Origin: an uncultured Rhodopila sp.
GTDB lineage: Bacteria; Pseudomonadota; Alphaproteobacteria; Acetobacterales; Acetobacteraceae
Assembly (NCBI RefSeq): GCF_903944925.1
Contig: NZ_CAJATU010000141.1
Coordinates: 62,001-126,000, forward strand
Direction of reading: 5' to 3'
Length of the DNA stretch: 64,000 nt
Positions 3,023 to 36,604 of this stretch are shown here, in pieces. Numbering within the stretch: position 1 is the stretch's first letter; every line of letters begins with the position of its first letter. A program made the translations under genes and the position numbers. The notes beneath the pieces are model-generated. The model made no database searches and was not told the origin of the DNA. It worked only from the letters and a program-made list of their open reading frames with translations.

Positions 3023-3751
3023 TCAGTACGTCGCGCGGCCGCCGGAGACGTCGAATACCGCACCGGTGGAAAAGCTGCACGCCTCGCTGGCCAGCCACAG
3101 GATCAGCGACGCGACCTCATCGATCTCGCCAAACCGGCCGATGGGGATCTTCGACAGCATCCAGTCGATCTGCTGCGGGGTCATCTGTTCGAATATCGGC
3201 GTCTTCACCGCCGCGGGGGTGACGCAATTGACCCGGATCTCGCTGGCCGCCAGTTCCTTGCCCAGCGACTTGGTCAGGCCGATGACGCCGGCTTTCGAGG
3301 CGGAATAGGCGGAGGCGTTCGGGTTGCCCTCCTTGCCGGCGATCGAGGCGATGTTGACGATCCGGCCGTAGCCGTTGGCCTGCATGAACGGGATGACGGC
3401 GCGGCAGCAGTAGAAGACGCCTTTCAGGTTGATGTCGATCACCTTGTCCCAGGCGGCAATCGGATACTCCCAGGCCGGGTGGTTCGGTCCGGTGATGCCC
3501 GCGGAGGTCACCAGGATGTCGATTTTGCCCAGCGCCGAAGCGGTGGATTCGGCGGCGCGGTGGACCGCTTCGGCATCGGTGACGTCGAGCGCTATGGTAT
3601 GGGCCGCGCCGGAGGCCGCCAGTCCGGACTCATCCAGGTCCCACACGCTGACCGTGGCACCTTCGGCGGCGAGTCGGCTGGCGACCCCGGCGCCAATGCC
3701 GGATGCGCCGCCGGTGACGATGCATGTGCGTCCTGCGAAAAGCTGCGTCAT
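3023..3751 (-). CDS. SDR family oxidoreductase
   Basis: MTQLFAGRTCIVTGGASGIGAG... YSASKAGVIGLTKSL. Confidence 0.9.
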   Translation of the reverse strand: MTQLFAGRTCIVTGGASGIGAGVASRLAAEGATVSVWDLDESGLAASGAAHTIALDVTDAEAVHRAAESTASALGKIDILVTSAGITGPNHPAWEYPIAAWDKVIDINLKGVFYCCRAVIPFMQANGYGRIVNIASIAGKEGNPNASAYSASKAGVIGLTKSLGKELAASEIRVNCVTPAAVKTPIFEQMTPQQIDWMLSKIPIGRFGEIDEVASLILWLASEACSFSTGAVFDVSGGRATY

Positions 3752-3971
3752 GGGTGCCTCCGTCGTGCCCGTGAGAGTGAAGGCTGGAAGCGCTGTTCCC
3801 GGCAAGATGGTCCGCCGGCGCGGCGCGGCGCATCGGGTCACATCCGCCATCGGCGCGGGAAATTGATCCACCGGGCGTTCGTCGCGCAAGGGTATAGTGC
3901 TAGAAGGGAAATACCTTGATAGCGCACTAATCAATGCGGAGCGACCTCGCAGAAAAAGGTATCATTTCGCC

Positions 3972-4772
3972 ATGTGGTTCCCCGCGTCCCTGCGGACCTG
4001 GCTGCGCAATCGGACGCCGTCGTCCGTGCGCCTTTTTTCGCGCGAAATACGAGCCACCCTCGGCAACAGGCGTAACCGCCGCCTCCCGGCGCGGGAGGTC
4101 TTCACCCGGGTTTATGCGGAACAGATGTGGGGTTCCGGACCGGGGGGTTTCTATTCCGGACCCGGATCCGATCGCGAAGCCGCACAGCCTTACGCCGATT
4201 TCGTGCTGGATTTTATCACCCGGAACGGAATTCGGAGCGTCGTCGATCTCGGATGCGGCGACTTCCGCGTCGGCCGCATGATCGCCCGTGATAGCATCAC
4301 ATACATCGGCGTAGACGTCGTTGAACCATTGATCGAGGATAACATTCGCCAATACGGTAGCGACACGATACACTTTGCGTGTCTCGATATCTCCGCCGAT
4401 CGGCTGCCGGACGGCGATTTGTGTTTGGTCCGCGAGGTCTTCCAGCATGTGTCGAATGCCGAGATCAGTGCGACCCTGGCAAAGCTGCGGCAATACCGCT
4501 ACGTGCTGTTCACCGATGTGCAGCCTGACATGGCCGATGGCTACAAGATCAACAAAGACAAGGTCCATGGAGCGAGCTCGAGGATTTTGCATAAGTCTTT
4601 CCTGCGGCTCGACGCACCGCCTTTCAATGTCAAGAATATCGAAATGGTTTTCGAGACGAGTCCGCCCGGCTTCCGTTCCATCCCGCCCTATGACTATGGA
4701 TTCAAGCTGCGGACATTCCTGATCAAACGATTGCCGTCCGAACCGGGCCTGGCGGAATCGTTCAACGCCTGA
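3972..4772 (+). CDS. Class I SAM-dependent methyltransferase
   Basis: VVDLGCGDFRVGRMIA motif I; ORF starts MWFPASLRTWL. Confidence 0.7.
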   Translation: MWFPASLRTWLRNRTPSSVRLFSREIRATLGNRRNRRLPAREVFTRVYAEQMWGSGPGGFYSGPGSDREAAQPYADFVLDFITRNGIRSVVDLGCGDFRVGRMIARDSITYIGVDVVEPLIEDNIRQYGSDTIHFACLDISADRLPDGDLCLVREVFQHVSNAEISATLAKLRQYRYVLFTDVQPDMADGYKINKDKVHGASSRILHKSFLRLDAPPFNVKNIEMVFETSPPGFRSIPPYDYGFKLRTFLIKRLPSEPGLAESFNA

Positions 4773-4832
4773 TCGGACCGTCACATCCACTGTTACGGTC
4801 CGCGTCAAGGCTGCGGCAAGAACCCGCGGCAG

Positions 4833-5171
4833 CTATGGCGCAAACGCGGCGAAAGCTGCCTTTTCGCTATCGTATATTTTTAGCAGGCTGTCGAAGCCGG
4901 CGGTGGCCAGAACGGTCTTGACGCCCTCGGTCGGGCTGCAGAGCTTCAATTCACCCCGATTGCCCTGTAGCAGCTTGGCGGTCCGCAAGATGATTCGCAG
5001 GCCTGCGCTGCTCAGGTAGTCGAGCTTTGCGATATTCAGCACTACATGCTTGTCGGGTCCCTGCGCAATCGTCACCATGCGATCGGCGATATCTCCCGAT
5101 GTCCGGCCGTCGAGACGGCCCTCGATGTCGATCACCAAAACGTCGTAGACTTTCCGTGTTTCGATCTGCAT
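4833..5171 (-). CDS. STAS domain protein (anti-anti-sigma factor-like)
   Basis: MQIETRKVYDVLVIDIEGRLDGRTSGDIADRM...LNIAKLDYLSSAGLRIIL. Confidence 0.85.
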   Translation of the reverse strand: MQIETRKVYDVLVIDIEGRLDGRTSGDIADRMVTIAQGPDKHVVLNIAKLDYLSSAGLRIILRTAKLLQGNRGELKLCSPTEGVKTVLATAGFDSLLKIYDSEKAAFAAFAP

Positions 5172-5357
5172 CCCCCGCTCCCGCCGTTTCGGTTAATCAT
5201 GCGGAAGCGAAACCCGATTGGCAACCTTGGCCTTGCCCGGGCGGGGTGCGCTTTAGACGCCACGCCGCCATTCTACAACTCTGTGGCCCTCATTCTTCCT
5301 CTGTGCTAAATGCGGAGATCAATCCACCGGCGTTGCCATGACAGCACCCCTGATCCT

Positions 5358-5717
5358 CTAATCCGCCTCCGGCAGAATCTCCGTCTTCACCGCCAGCACC
5401 TCCCCCATCCATACCGCATTGATCGTATGATCGTCGCGCGGACGCCCGGACTCCGGGTGCAGCAGCACCGTCAGCCCCTGCCGGTTCAGCATCACGAACG
5501 GCACCACTTCGGCAAACAACTCCGCCGGGAAGCTGAACAGATACATCGCGCGGACATGCGGCCCCACCGGCTCATCCCGCCAGCGACCCATCTTCACCGA
5601 AAACCGAGCCTCCACCCAGTCCCGCAGTATCGCGGCCCGGTCCCGGCTGTCCGGGTCATAGTAAACATGGATATGGTAATCGGTGATCCGCCCGGGATCG
5701 ATCGGCTCCACCGGCAT
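5358..5717 (-). CDS. DOPA 4,5-dioxygenase family protein
   Basis: ITDYHIHVYYDPDSRDRA...VGPHVRAMYLFSF...GLTVLLHPESGRPRDDHT. Confidence 0.85.
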   Translation of the reverse strand: MPVEPIDPGRITDYHIHVYYDPDSRDRAAILRDWVEARFSVKMGRWRDEPVGPHVRAMYLFSFPAELFAEVVPFVMLNRQGLTVLLHPESGRPRDDHTINAVWMGEVLAVKTEILPEAD

Positions 5718-7252
5718 CACGCATCCTCCTGCAACATTCGTCTCAACTCGCGCTTCGTGACTTTGCCGTAACCGGATTTCGGCAGCTCCGGCCAGACCGC
5801 GAACCGCACCGGCCATTTATACTTCGCCACCCTGCTCTCCAGATGCGCCAGCAGGTCTGCCGCTGTCGCCGTCGCGCCGGGCTCCAGCACCAGGACCGCG
5901 ACACCCGCCTCACCCCATTTCTCGTGCGGCATGCCGACGACGCAGGCTTCCACCACGGCGGGATGCAGCAGCAGCGCCTCCTCGATCTCCCGCGGATAGA
6001 CGTTCGAGCCGCCGGAGATATACATGTCCGACGCCCGGCCGGTGATGTAGACGAATCCGCGCTCATCCACATGCCCCAGGTCGCCGGTATGGAACCAGCC
6101 GAACAGGGTGGCCTTCGCGGTCGCCTCCGGATTGTCGTGGTAGCCGGCGAAAACCCCCGGCCCGCGCACGCAGATTTCGCCGGTCACGCCCGCGGCGAGA
6201 TGCTGACCGGCATCGTCCAGGATCGCGATCTCCATGCCGACGCGGGGAAATCCGCAGCTCCCGACGGCCATGTCCGCGTCGTCCTCGCTGTGCAGCGCAG
6301 CCGGCAGGACAGTGATGTTGCCGGTTACTTCGCCCATGCCGAAATACTGCACCAGCACCTTGCCCAGCTTTTGCAGCGCATGCACCTGATCCGCCCGGTA
6401 CATCGGCGCACCGGCATAGATCACATGCCGCAGGGAACTGTGGTCGTAACGGTCCACGGATTCATGCCGGGTCAGCATCGTCAGGATCGTAGGCACGGTA
6501 AACATGTTGGTCACGCGGTGCTTTTCCACCAGACGCCACGCCTCGTCGCAATCCAGCTTCTCGCCGGACAGCAGGATCGTCGGCGCGCCGCGCGCGACCT
6601 GCGGCAGCGCATGCACCCCGGCGCCGTGCGACAACGGCGCAACGACCAGCGAGGCATCCTCCTCCGTCGTGGCCGGCATCAGGTCGCACAGATGGTTGCA
6701 GACGACATAATCCATCTGCCCGTGGGTCAGCACGCCCGCCTTCGGCCGCCCGGTCGTTCCCGATGTGTAAAAGAACCACGCCGGATGATCCCGGTCCACA
6801 TCCGCCGGACGCAGCAGCCGTTCGCCGCCCGTGGCGAATGCCTCCCAGCCCTCGCCGATGGAAATCTCCAGCCGGCAGGCCGGGTTTTCCGCTTTCGCCG
6901 CCGCCGCGTGCTCCGGAAAAGTCGCCTCGAAGATATGCACCGCCGCGCCGGAGGACGCCGCCAGATAGGCAACCTCCGGCGGTGTCAGGCGGAAATTCGT
7001 CGGCACCCAGACACCGCCGATCATCCAGGTAGCGAACATTGTTTCGAGGACGCAGTTGGAGTTGCGGGCGTGCAGCAGCACCCGGTCGCCGTGCCGCACG
7101 CCGCGCGCCGCCAACGCCCCCGCCGCGGACTGCACCCGGTCGCGAAACGACGCCCAGGTCCAGGTGGTGTCGCGCCAGACGATCGCCCGGCGGTCGGGAA
7201 ACCGCCGCGCGGTCTGCAGCAGCAGCGACGCCAGGTTGCTGGTCGGGATCAG
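5717..7252 (-). CDS. AMP-binding acyl-CoA synthetase
   Basis: FYTSGTTGRPKAGVLTH, GWFHTGDLG, PKSGYGKVTKRELR. The track ORF begins at GTG 7135, but homologous N-terminal sequence (NLASLLLQTARRFPDRRAIVWRDTTWTWASFRDRV) extends in frame to a CTG at 7252. Confidence 0.9.
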   Translation of the reverse strand: MIPTSNLASLLLQTARRFPDRRAIVWRDTTWTWASFRDRVQSAAGALAARGVRHGDRVLLHARNSNCVLETMFATWMIGGVWVPTNFRLTPPEVAYLAASSGAAVHIFEATFPEHAAAAKAENPACRLEISIGEGWEAFATGGERLLRPADVDRDHPAWFFYTSGTTGRPKAGVLTHGQMDYVVCNHLCDLMPATTEEDASLVVAPLSHGAGVHALPQVARGAPTILLSGEKLDCDEAWRLVEKHRVTNMFTVPTILTMLTRHESVDRYDHSSLRHVIYAGAPMYRADQVHALQKLGKVLVQYFGMGEVTGNITVLPAALHSEDDADMAVGSCGFPRVGMEIAILDDAGQHLAAGVTGEICVRGPGVFAGYHDNPEATAKATLFGWFHTGDLGHVDERGFVYITGRASDMYISGGSNVYPREIEEALLLHPAVVEACVVGMPHEKWGEAGVAVLVLEPGATATAADLLAHLESRVAKYKWPVRFAVWPELPKSGYGKVTKRELRRMLQEDA

Positions 7253-32486: not shown

Positions 32487-32612
32487 CAGCCTGCCGGACG
32501 GAGATTGACGGCAAGGCACCACATCCACGGCCCGCTTGCCCGGCCCGGCAGGGACGCCGGACTGGAAGCTGGAATCAGGGCGAGGCTTCTCATCGATCGG
32601 GCGGTAGCGTGC

Positions 32613-32900
32613 ATGACTCGGAAGCGATTAGACAATTCGGCGACCGAAGCGAGGCAGGATTTGAATGCGATGCCCGATGGCTATCAAAGCGAGCCTGTTG
32701 TCATTCGGCACGGGAACCGCGACGTCGCCGTCGTTGTATCGCCACTGGAGTACGAACGGCTTCGGGCGATCGATATCGGAGAGTTCGAACGCTTCTGCGA
32801 CCGGATCGGCGAGCGGGCGGCGGAGGCTGGACTGACCGAGGCGAGGGTCGCCGAATCCCTGTCTGAACCAGCACCCGGCTGCGCGACGCTGCCGGAATGA
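32613..32900 (+). CDS. Phd/YefM-like antitoxin, apparently solitary
   Basis: MTRKRLDNSATEARQDLNAMPDGYQSEPVVIRHGNRDVAVVVSPLEYERLRAID; no PIN/RelE ORF next to it. Confidence 0.65.
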   Translation: MTRKRLDNSATEARQDLNAMPDGYQSEPVVIRHGNRDVAVVVSPLEYERLRAIDIGEFERFCDRIGERAAEAGLTEARVAESLSEPAPGCATLPE

Positions 32901-32971
32901 ACGTCATGAACAGTGTTCGCCTGTTTCGGTTTCCTCCCGCGCCGGTTTCCGCCGACAGGGCCGCGCGCCTT

Positions 32972-33565
32972 TCATGCATGCGGCTGGAGTGATGCCCCAT
33001 CTCTGACGGCCTCGGCTTCACCGGCGGCCGGGATCCGCCTGGTTTCGGTCGCTGAAGACAATCTGTTCAGCGAACCCTCTATGCGTTGCACGATCGGGGA
33101 ACTTGCGAGGTAGGCCCGCATTTCCTCCGAGTGAAACACCGGAGACGCGATCGGCTTCTGTAGCACGGCGTCCAATACACTGCGCGGGTCCTGCTGTAGT
33201 GTGTCAATTTGTTCCGGGGTCAGTTGGACGCCTGGGATGGAGGCGGAACGCCCCGGCCCGGTGAACAGGGCGCAGACCAGGTCCGGGACGGCAAAAATGA
33301 GATCGAATTCAGTCCCGTTCGACCACGATTGCAGCAGATAGTTGTATTCCGCTTCTTGCCGCCGGACGTCCTCGGGGTCGGTCGCGTCAGCGTCAAGCAC
33401 AACGATCACGGGCTGACGCCGCTTCATCATGATCGAAGCCGCCAAAGATACGGCCGAGGATTCCCCGCCCGCCGATACCACCTGGTGCTCGGGGAGTGAC
33501 GGCGGCGCCAACACCAGTTCCATGAGCGCCTTGTCGTTCGGGCCTTCGACGATCAGATAAATCAT
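32972..33565 (-). CDS. Stand-alone TOPRIM/OLD-like nuclease domain protein
   Basis: MIYLIVEGPNDKALMELVL...PVIVVLDADATDPEDV: conserved Glu and DxD pattern of TOPRIM. Confidence 0.6.
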   Translation of the reverse strand: MIYLIVEGPNDKALMELVLAPPSLPEHQVVSAGGESSAVSLAASIMMKRRQPVIVVLDADATDPEDVRRQEAEYNYLLQSWSNGTEFDLIFAVPDLVCALFTGPGRSASIPGVQLTPEQIDTLQQDPRSVLDAVLQKPIASPVFHSEEMRAYLASSPIVQRIEGSLNRLSSATETRRIPAAGEAEAVRDGASLQPHA

Positions 33566-33798
33566 GCCAAAGCCGCCTCCAGAACGTTGAAGAATGGCAA
33601 GCCCATTTCGACGTTGGTCCGGTATTTCAGCAACAAAGGCCGGACGAAATCGCGGGTTGCAAGGGCATACTCGATTTCCGGCTTATCCCATAGCAGATCG
33701 GCCTGGGGGGCAAGGAAGTGCGCCATCGTCAGCGCTGGCGGCGTGTATCCGGTGCGGCTGAATAGAGGGCCAATGACGCTTGCATGCCGCCTCATCAA
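33562..33798 (-). CDS. Small protein, partner of the TOPRIM gene
   Basis: 78-aa ORF; its stop overlaps the TOPRIM gene start by 4 nt. Confidence 0.55.
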   Translation of the reverse strand: MMRRHASVIGPLFSRTGYTPPALTMAHFLAPQADLLWDKPEIEYALATRDFVRPLLLKYRTNVEMGLPFFNVLEAALA

Positions 33799-33902
33799 CT
33801 GGTTTCGGAGCTTCGCGTCGGCTCCGCCGTGACGCGAGCTTTGTCGCCACCCATCCGGCCGACTCCAAGGTCCTTGGCCTCAAGTGAGCCGCCGGGTGCG
33901 CG

Positions 33903-34209: not shown

Positions 34210-34237
34210 TTGTCAAGGCTTATTGTTGGTGTAACAT
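34210..34237 (+). promoter_or_regulatory. Candidate sigma70-like promoter
   Basis: TTGTCA - 16 nt - TAACAT directly upstream of the AT-rich ORF. Confidence 0.5.
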
Positions 34238-34269
34238 CATTATTGTTGTGGGACTCAAGGAGGGTCAAT

Positions 34270-34821
34270 ATGGCGACGACGAGAGTTGGGCAATCTGCCA
34301 AGGCGCAACCGGCTGAGCCGGAGACCGTCGATGCGCGGTCCGCAGAGGAACGTGACCGGCTAAAATCGAAGGAGCAGTGGCTGCGTGAGGAACTTAGGGC
34401 GTCAAGGACGCAACTCTCAAACCAGATGCAATGGGGAATAACGGTTTTGGCTGCGGTTTCGATTAATTTATACTATATCAGAAAAGACGTTCATACTCAT
34501 CTTGTACAACAGCATAGAATAGACCCAAGCGAAATGCTGCCATTTCAAAGGTGGATTATAGGAACCATACTTTTAATTTTCCTCGCTTGGATATTTACGT
34601 CTCTTACACGTAGATATTCTATTCATCACGGCGTTTACAGAGATCAACTCATGGAGATGAACGGCGGATTTTCGGGGATAGAAGAAAAAGTTCCCAGAGC
34701 TAGGTTTCTACACAACGCGCCATCTTTTCTTTACTTCAGTATACCTGCCTTGGACATAATGGCTTGGACTATGTTCTACGCTGGTGAAAAGTTACAATTC
34801 AATTTCTTGGTACCTTGGTGA
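34270..34821 (+). CDS. AT-rich predicted membrane protein (about 3 TM), unknown function
   Basis: SD AAGGAGGG 5 nt upstream of ATG at 34270; hydrophobic segments WGITVLAAVSINLYYI, WIIGTILLIFLAWIFTSL, FLYFSIPALDIMAWTMFYA. Confidence 0.7.
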   Translation: MATTRVGQSAKAQPAEPETVDARSAEERDRLKSKEQWLREELRASRTQLSNQMQWGITVLAAVSINLYYIRKDVHTHLVQQHRIDPSEMLPFQRWIIGTILLIFLAWIFTSLTRRYSIHHGVYRDQLMEMNGGFSGIEEKVPRARFLHNAPSFLYFSIPALDIMAWTMFYAGEKLQFNFLVPW

Positions 34822-34975
34822 CGGGGATTCGATGGATAATGTCGCGAGATCAAGCGCCCCAAAATGGGGGAAGGCACCGCTCCCATGCCCACCTTTTGAG
34901 CACTTGATATCCATCGAAAGTAAGGTATCAGGCAGGCCAAACTCTCGACTAATATCTCTCTATTAAAGGAGACCC

Positions 34976-36604
34976 CTACCCCGCCGCCGCCACAGCCTTC
35001 CCGCCCGACAGCCTGAAGATCCGGTCCAGCCGCTCCACCCCGGTCAGCCGGTGGGTAATCAGCACCACCGTCCGCCCCGCCGCCGATTCATTCAGCGTCT
35101 CCAGAAACGACCGCTCCGTCTCCGCATCCAGCCCGGCGCACGGCTCGTCCAATATCAATATCGGTGCCGGAGACAACAAAGCCCGCGCCAAAGCCAGCCG
35201 CCGCCCCTGCCCGCCGGAGAACCGCGTGCCGCCCTCGCCCACCCACGTCTCCAACTGATCCGGCAACCCCCGCACCAGATCGCCGATCCGGGCCGCATCC
35301 AGCGCCGCCCAAAGCGACACCTCATCCGCCTCCGGCCGAGCCAGCAGCAAATTCGCCCGGATCGTGTCATCGAACAGATGCGTCGTCTGCCCCAGCCAGC
35401 CAATCCGCGCCCGCACCAACGCCGCCGGCAGGAACGCGATATCCGTCCCGCCCAGCAGGATCTGCCCCGACCGCGGCGCCACCACCTTCAGCGCCAGCGC
35501 CGCCAAGGTGGACTTTCCCGCCCCCGACGGACCCAGCAACGCCACCCGCGCCCCCTCCGGCACCTCCAACGTCAACCCGTCAAACACCGGCGGCCGATCG
35601 GCTGACCAGCGGAACTGCACGGCCTCGAAGCGCAGCCCGCAACCCAGCGGCATCGCCGCCGGATCAGCCGGGTCGGGCACCGGCACCGGCGCATCCGCCG
35701 CCTCCAGCACCCGCCGCGCCGCCGCCGACGCATGTCCCGCCAGCGCCCCCGCCCGAGGCAGCCCGCTGATCGCCTCGAACGCCGCCAGCACCAGGAACGC
35801 CGCCGCCACCGCCGCCGCCGGATGCGCCCCGGAATCAATCAGCACCGCCAGCACCGCAATCTGAGCGCACAGGAACGCTCCCGCCGCCGCCAAAGCCGTC
35901 CGTCCCGACATCGCCTGCTGCGCGGCGAACAGCCCCGCCTCTTTCGCCTGCACATTGGCCAGCATGCGGCCCTCGGCGGCGAACGCCCGCACCTCCCGCA
36001 GCCCGGTCAGCGCATCCAGTGCGGCGACGCGTAGCGCCCCGGCCTCCGCAGCCAGGCCGGAGCCGGTGCGCACCGAGGCGCGCATCGCGACCCACGGCAG
36101 CACGAACGCCGCGATCGCGAACAGCACGCCGATTTCTGTCGCCAGCGCGGCGGAGCGGTGCGCGATCAGCAGCACCAGCCCCGGCAGCAGCATGACTGCC
36201 CCGGCCAGCGGCAGCACCATGCGCAGATAGATCCCGTCCAGCGCCTCGACATCGCCGACAAGCCGCGACAAAACGTCGCCGGCCTGGCGGAAGCCCAACC
36301 CGCCCGCGCCGGTCCGTGCCAGGGACTTGAAGAACCAAACCCGCACATCGGCCAGCGCGCGGAACGTCGCGGTATGCGTCGTCACCCGCTCCAGATAGCG
36401 CAGCACCACGCGGCTGACGCCAAACACCCGCAGCACCAGCGGCAGGGTCAGCACGCCGGCCACCGCCGCGCCAATTGCGTAGCCCGACATCGCCATCAGC
36501 GCGACGCCGGCCTCCAGCGCTGCCAGCGACAGGACCACGCCCGCCGCCAGCCACAGGAACTGCGGCGTCCAGAGCAACAGTATCCGGCTCAACGGCCCCA
36601 TCAC
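34976..36604 (-). CDS. cydC: Thiol reductant ABC exporter subunit CydC
   Basis: ABC permease-ATPase fusion; GPSGAGKSTLAALAL, FSGGQGRRLALARALL; pairs with cydD. Confidence 0.88.
   Translation of the reverse strand: MMGPLSRILLLWTPQFLWLAAGVVLSLAALEAGVALMAMSGYAIGAAVAGVLTLPLVLRVFGVSRVVLRYLERVTTHTATFRALADVRVWFFKSLARTGAGGLGFRQAGDVLSRLVGDVEALDGIYLRMVLPLAGAVMLLPGLVLLIAHRSAALATEIGVLFAIAAFVLPWVAMRASVRTGSGLAAEAGALRVAALDALTGLREVRAFAAEGRMLANVQAKEAGLFAAQQAMSGRTALAAAGAFLCAQIAVLAVLIDSGAHPAAAVAAAFLVLAAFEAISGLPRAGALAGHASAAARRVLEAADAPVPVPDPADPAAMPLGCGLRFEAVQFRWSADRPPVFDGLTLEVPEGARVALLGPSGAGKSTLAALALKVVAPRSGQILLGGTDIAFLPAALVRARIGWLGQTTHLFDDTIRANLLLARPEADEVSLWAALDAARIGDLVRGLPDQLETWVGEGGTRFSGGQGRRLALARALLSPAPILILDEPCAGLDAETERSFLETLNESAAGRTVVLITHRLTGVERLDRIFRLSGGKAVAAAG

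Follow-up and report, generated by a model that had tools for sequence, protein, structure and literature searches.

A probable decayed copy of a rare gene pair encoding an Mrr-like nuclease and a TOPRIM-like protein in an uncultured Rhodopila

Introduction

Mrr-type enzymes are established restriction nucleases. TOPRIM nucleases occur in the OLD, Gabija, PARIS and Wadjet defence systems, where they are, to our knowledge, governed by an ATPase. In the OLD and Gabija classes, as these have been defined, the TOPRIM domain acts as effector (PMC10568477). It also serves as effector in PARIS, whose AriB is an established TOPRIM nuclease cutting tRNA (PMC12409363). Both domains are familiar, and searches of the open-access literature found no paper describing a gene pair of the Mrr-like/TOPRIM kind.

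Here, a locus carrying the remains of such a pair is analyzed in a stretch of 64,000 nucleotides from an uncultured Rhodopila sp. (contig NZ_CAJATU010000141.1, positions 62,001 to 126,000), henceforth referred to as the window. A first-pass annotation, made from the letters alone, had described the locus as a two-gene operon of a small protein and a stand-alone TOPRIM domain, possibly a minimal or degraded phage-defence module.

Each of the closest described systems shares traits with the pair and departs from it in others. With Mrr-like type IV restriction endonucleases (PF04471), the nuclease has in common the PD-(D/E)XK core with its Glu, Asp and E-x-K. However, at about 190 aa it lacks the extra N-terminal domain of the 300-350 aa relatives L016 and L017, and it is followed here by an overlapping TOPRIM gene. 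PARIS, which combines the OLD-type ATPase AriA with the TOPRIM protein AriB, likewise places a stand-alone TOPRIM gene beside a partner gene, and AriB profiles match weakly; the neighbouring genes in the window and in five further copies, however, give an Mrr-like partner and no AriA-type ABC ATPase. The TOPRIM motifs are also like those of the Gabija and OLD-family nucleases, with a weak GajA match to the TOPRIM region of one homologue, whereas the module contains neither a fused ABC ATPase nor a UvrD-like helicase partner. Finally, the HEC-01B profile of PADLOC system HEC-01 weakly matches the N-terminal TOPRIM residues (E 0.004-0.05), yet HEC-01A and HEC-01B are not present together. Overall, the pair matches no system in PADLOC-DB 2.0.0 well.

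Results and discussion

An intact TOPRIM-like gene

The window carries an intact, stand-alone TOPRIM-like gene of 197 aa on the reverse strand (32972..33565), recognized by its open reading frame, its relatives, and the acidic positions E7, D58 and D60 together with a conserved D11. The motifs MIYLIVEGPNDK and VIVVLDADAT are present as the first-pass annotation had reported, the 4-nt overlap with the open reading frame at 33562-33798 was confirmed, and it was correctly noted that no ATPase gene adjoins. The gene is single-copy in its own genome. That it is more than a chance reading frame is indicated by a full-length relative of 83% identity in a genome of the same genus, 'uncultured Rhodopila' bin-2215 (G024), at a locus designated L002. 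Comparison of both TOPRIM genes yields a dN of 0.083, a dS of 0.43 and a dN/dS of 0.19.

The putative assignment to TOPRIM is based on the motif and on sub-threshold profile matches. The strand-1 Glu and the DxD motif correspond to E7, D58 and D60, which are acidic in all six known copies of the pair, with some D/E exchanges, and are retained in relatives of 27-31% identity. Pfam DUF3226 matches the window protein with an E value of 0.001 and its L002 relative with 1.1e-4, and OLD-like_TOPRIM does so with 0.16 and 0.009, respectively, all below cut-off. Both matches span the first 66 residues, which are also weakly matched by the PADLOC profiles HEC-01B, mad4 and AriB (E 0.0003-0.06). All TOPRIM profile matches lie under the curated cut-offs where such cut-offs exist, and no Pfam TOPRIM model exceeds its cut-off for the TOPRIM proteins of the window, L002 or the homologues. 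A PDB sequence search returned nothing. AlphaFold models of both proteins were poor (pLDDT 42 and 49), the alignments being too shallow, and a PDB fold search from these models was uninformative.

The 78-aa open reading frame is the tail of a nuclease gene

At the syntenic spot in L002, a gene encoding a 195-aa nuclease (L002:1173-1760) overlaps the gene for the 197-aa TOPRIM protein by 4 nt. The 78-aa open reading frame of the window (33562..33798, reverse strand) corresponds to residues 118-195 of this nuclease, its translation being in register with the end of the L002 protein. What had been taken for a small upstream protein is thus the C-terminus of a frame-shifted, 5'-truncated gene that is intact in L002. 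An independent 78-aa protein is ruled out by the 195-aa reading frame of L002, the DNA alignment and the register; descent from a lost ATPase, as in a PARIS-like system in decay, was dropped once L002 showed a nuclease. Consequently, it was wrong to picture a minimal module whose small protein belongs to no assignable family, the 78 aa being the tail of an Mrr-like endonuclease, while the alternative that the module is degraded is borne out by the intact syntenic relative. The residues of the 78-aa frame are indeed kept beside the TOPRIM gene in six of six copies, but within a bigger protein. As the window copy illustrates, automatic calling of open reading frames can make the end of a defunct nuclease gene look like a novel small protein.

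The remnant of the Mrr-like PD-(D/E)XK endonuclease gene occupies 33562..33881 on the reverse strand. DNA identity of 87% between the window and L002 covers 32637-33881 and ends abruptly at 33881, where homology to the nuclease gene sets in with its E-A-K codons. Protein matches to residues 89-113 and 111-195 lie in different frames, in agreement with a 1-nt frameshift at 33815..33820 (reverse strand) that appears as a gap in both the blastn and the multiple alignment and reflects one base missing near 33818. Beyond the break at 33881..33882, the upstream DNA occurs only once in the genome, is not a repeat and is unrelated to the L002 locus of G024. The N-terminal half of the nuclease is gone and with it the catalytic Asp (D77) and the upstream Glu (E46); instead of an intact catalytic half, the window copy has the EAK start followed by the frameshift. 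Judging from its sequence, the window module would be dead as a pair, as a nuclease lacking its catalytic half cannot work as such.

Leptolyngbya NIES-3755 and Rhizobium beringeri carry plasmid-borne homologues of the nuclease with 39-47% identity. Those of Leptolyngbya (P0004, 36.2 bits) and Rhizobium (P0005, 26.7 bits) exceed the Mrr_cat (PF04471) cut-off of 21. The L002 nuclease, 47% and 39% identical to P0004 and P0005, respectively, stays under this cut-off and has no Pfam match by itself. The PD-(D/E)XK site, consisting of E46, D77, E90 and K92 (the latter two forming E-x-K), is invariant in the intact nuclease members. No PADLOC model matches the nuclease gene of L002 or its homologues.

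Both genes form a conserved unit

Six pairs were compared, namely those of the window and L002, one on plasmid pRlX3 of Rhizobium beringeri and three on Leptolyngbya NIES-3755 plasmids; these are the only copies known and represent three lineages. Searching 72,556 plasmids with the nuclease and the TOPRIM protein separately led to the same three records, with four pairs in total, in each of which the TOPRIM gene lies directly downstream of the nuclease gene. The order of nuclease followed by overlapping TOPRIM gene is common to all six copies, with an overlap of 4 nt in five and of 23 nt in Rhizobium. The TOPRIM reading frames of the copies measure 129-197 aa and are devoid of an ATPase domain. 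Moreover, in every copy the TOPRIM gene starts inside the nuclease gene and is preceded at the same place by GGAGG or GGAG, which in the window is a GGAGG ribosome-binding site at 33576..33580 (reverse strand). The position of this element within the nuclease gene points to translational coupling.

The nuclease tail of the window has a dN/dS of 0.13 relative to L002, and values for all parts of the Leptolyngbya copies range from 0.10 to 0.19. Both genes have therefore been under purifying selection until recently (dN/dS about 0.1-0.2). As the ratio for the nuclease tail is as low as that for the TOPRIM gene, the break in the window nuclease is probably recent.

Taken together, we favour the view that a rare, mobile nuclease module has left a decayed copy in the window, and that the intact pair most likely acts on DNA to fend off incoming DNA, in the manner of restriction or of abortive defence. 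In such a system, the PD-(D/E)XK protein would cut DNA, while the TOPRIM protein, translated along with it, would form a complex with the nuclease and control or complement cutting through its metal-binding site. The intact TOPRIM gene of the window would then either be awaiting decay or be kept for its own sake. TOPRIM catalysis, complex formation and the role in defence are what we infer for the intact pair. A further reading is put forward tentatively, in which the pair may be a minimal, hitherto undescribed immune or toxin-like system of two small proteins with nuclease folds, whose Mrr-like enzyme is controlled by a stand-alone TOPRIM protein serving as sensor or restraint and not as cutter, with no ATPase, helicase or methylase involved. 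If true, a module that joins TOPRIM to another nuclease fold but has no energy-using sensor would raise the question of how self and foreign DNA are told apart. At about 1.2 kb, the module is small enough for quick testing.

The nuclease gene appears broken more often than its partner

The nuclease gene is broken in half of the six copies, i.e. in the window, on Leptolyngbya plasmid3 and in the second copy on Leptolyngbya plasmid1, while the TOPRIM gene is broken in none. A further remnant of the nuclease, without TOPRIM, is present in another family member, genome G129. The asymmetry suggests, on the basis of few break events, that the nuclease is a costly effector and the TOPRIM protein a partner or regulator harmless on its own. 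Assembly errors could in part account for the breaks in Leptolyngbya and for the frameshift in the window.

The same asymmetry would be expected if the pair resembled a toxin-antitoxin system, with the PD-(D/E)XK protein as a DNA nuclease harmful to its own cell, kept in check by a non-catalytic TOPRIM restrainer that stays behind harmlessly after nuclease loss. The stop/start overlap with its coupled translation, the plasmid location and the variation between D and E at the TOPRIM acidic sites are all in line with this explanation. However, the effector gene comes first, opposite to most toxin-antitoxin pairs, no copy has lost the acidic character of these positions, suggesting metal binding, and three breakages are few; we therefore consider a toxin-antitoxin-like pair unlikely.

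Independent nuclease breaks were seen to cluster just after the E-x-K codons (5165-5300 in L011, about 2040-2080 in L076 and 33815-33881 in the window), possibly by chance. Since all three lie no more than a few tens of nucleotides past this motif, programmed frameshifting was considered. It is unsupported, the breaks consisting of 1-nt losses at different places and one insertion of approximately 22 nt, and a single frame running through each of three intact copies.

Distribution and genomic neighbourhood

Among about 200 relatives, close matches are confined to two genomes, with the remnant of G129 in a third. Samples of the class, the phylum, the order and a second family contained only distant Mrr-like matches and no module, and neither member of the pair was detected in viral contigs (four scans) or phage records. 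No defence island could be made out near the core-family pairs. Distant Mrr-like relatives adjoin Qat and nucleotidyltransferase/HEPN genes, and Mrr-like relatives on other plasmids have other partners and no TOPRIM gene. Since the distant relatives occur without a TOPRIM gene, their surroundings are only a weak argument for a defence role of the module discussed here.

The module occupies the same region in the window and in G024, where a NUDIX gene and cydDC flank it. For G024 we infer the link to cydDC, as the contig ends about 1.2 kb past the module and the start of cydC is found at the border of a separate contig. The gene after the module in L002 of G024 encodes an FRG domain (E 1e-22), and the G024 region also contains an ImmA/IrrE-type (M78) gene. 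The window region instead carries a gene for an Nramp-type transporter and an 82-nt leftover of the end of the FRG gene (32553..32634, reverse strand; 83% identity to L002:3050-3131), which marks a deletion in the window. Synteny within the genus ends exactly at the cydC stop codon, even where CydC is 98% identical, and the module therefore resides in a variable spot. This setting, together with the copies on plasmids, makes a role in phage defence plausible for the pair.

Plasmid or chromosome maintenance, or DNA repair, offers an explanation outside defence, in which the TOPRIM protein would nick or handle DNA ends and the Mrr-like enzyme would resolve them. DNA repair frequently involves TOPRIM and PD-(D/E)XK domains, and one Leptolyngbya copy adjoins a RecD-like gene and another lies near parAB. 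A rare and sporadic pair that is repeatedly broken and occupies a variable spot among close relatives is, on the other hand, unlike a housekeeping function, rendering a maintenance or repair role improbable. That the window TOPRIM protein now acts alone as a free-standing nuclease or regulator after the loss of its partner, for which its intact reading frame, retained ribosome-binding site and dN/dS of 0.19 could be cited, is more improbable still, given that the ratio is equally low for the nuclease tail and that intactness says little on present use.

Several neighbouring features lie beside the module. Convergent with the TOPRIM gene, a Phd/YefM-like antitoxin gene with an altered N-terminus is found at 32611..32900 on the forward strand, with no adjoining toxin gene. 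Its counterpart in L002 (2421-2696, reverse strand) is intact, and no toxin gene was seen there either; the antitoxin gene is co-located with the module but probably not part of it. Between the module and cydC, a 203-aa open reading frame (34210-34821) has membrane segments as predicted by eye and matches no Pfam or PADLOC model. In L002, the FRG-domain and ImmA/IrrE-like (M78) genes at 3080-5802 possibly form a small accessory or conflict cluster. The variable spot itself extends in the window from the end of cydC (34973-34977) to about 31055, and its contents differ among genomes G000, G024 and G007.
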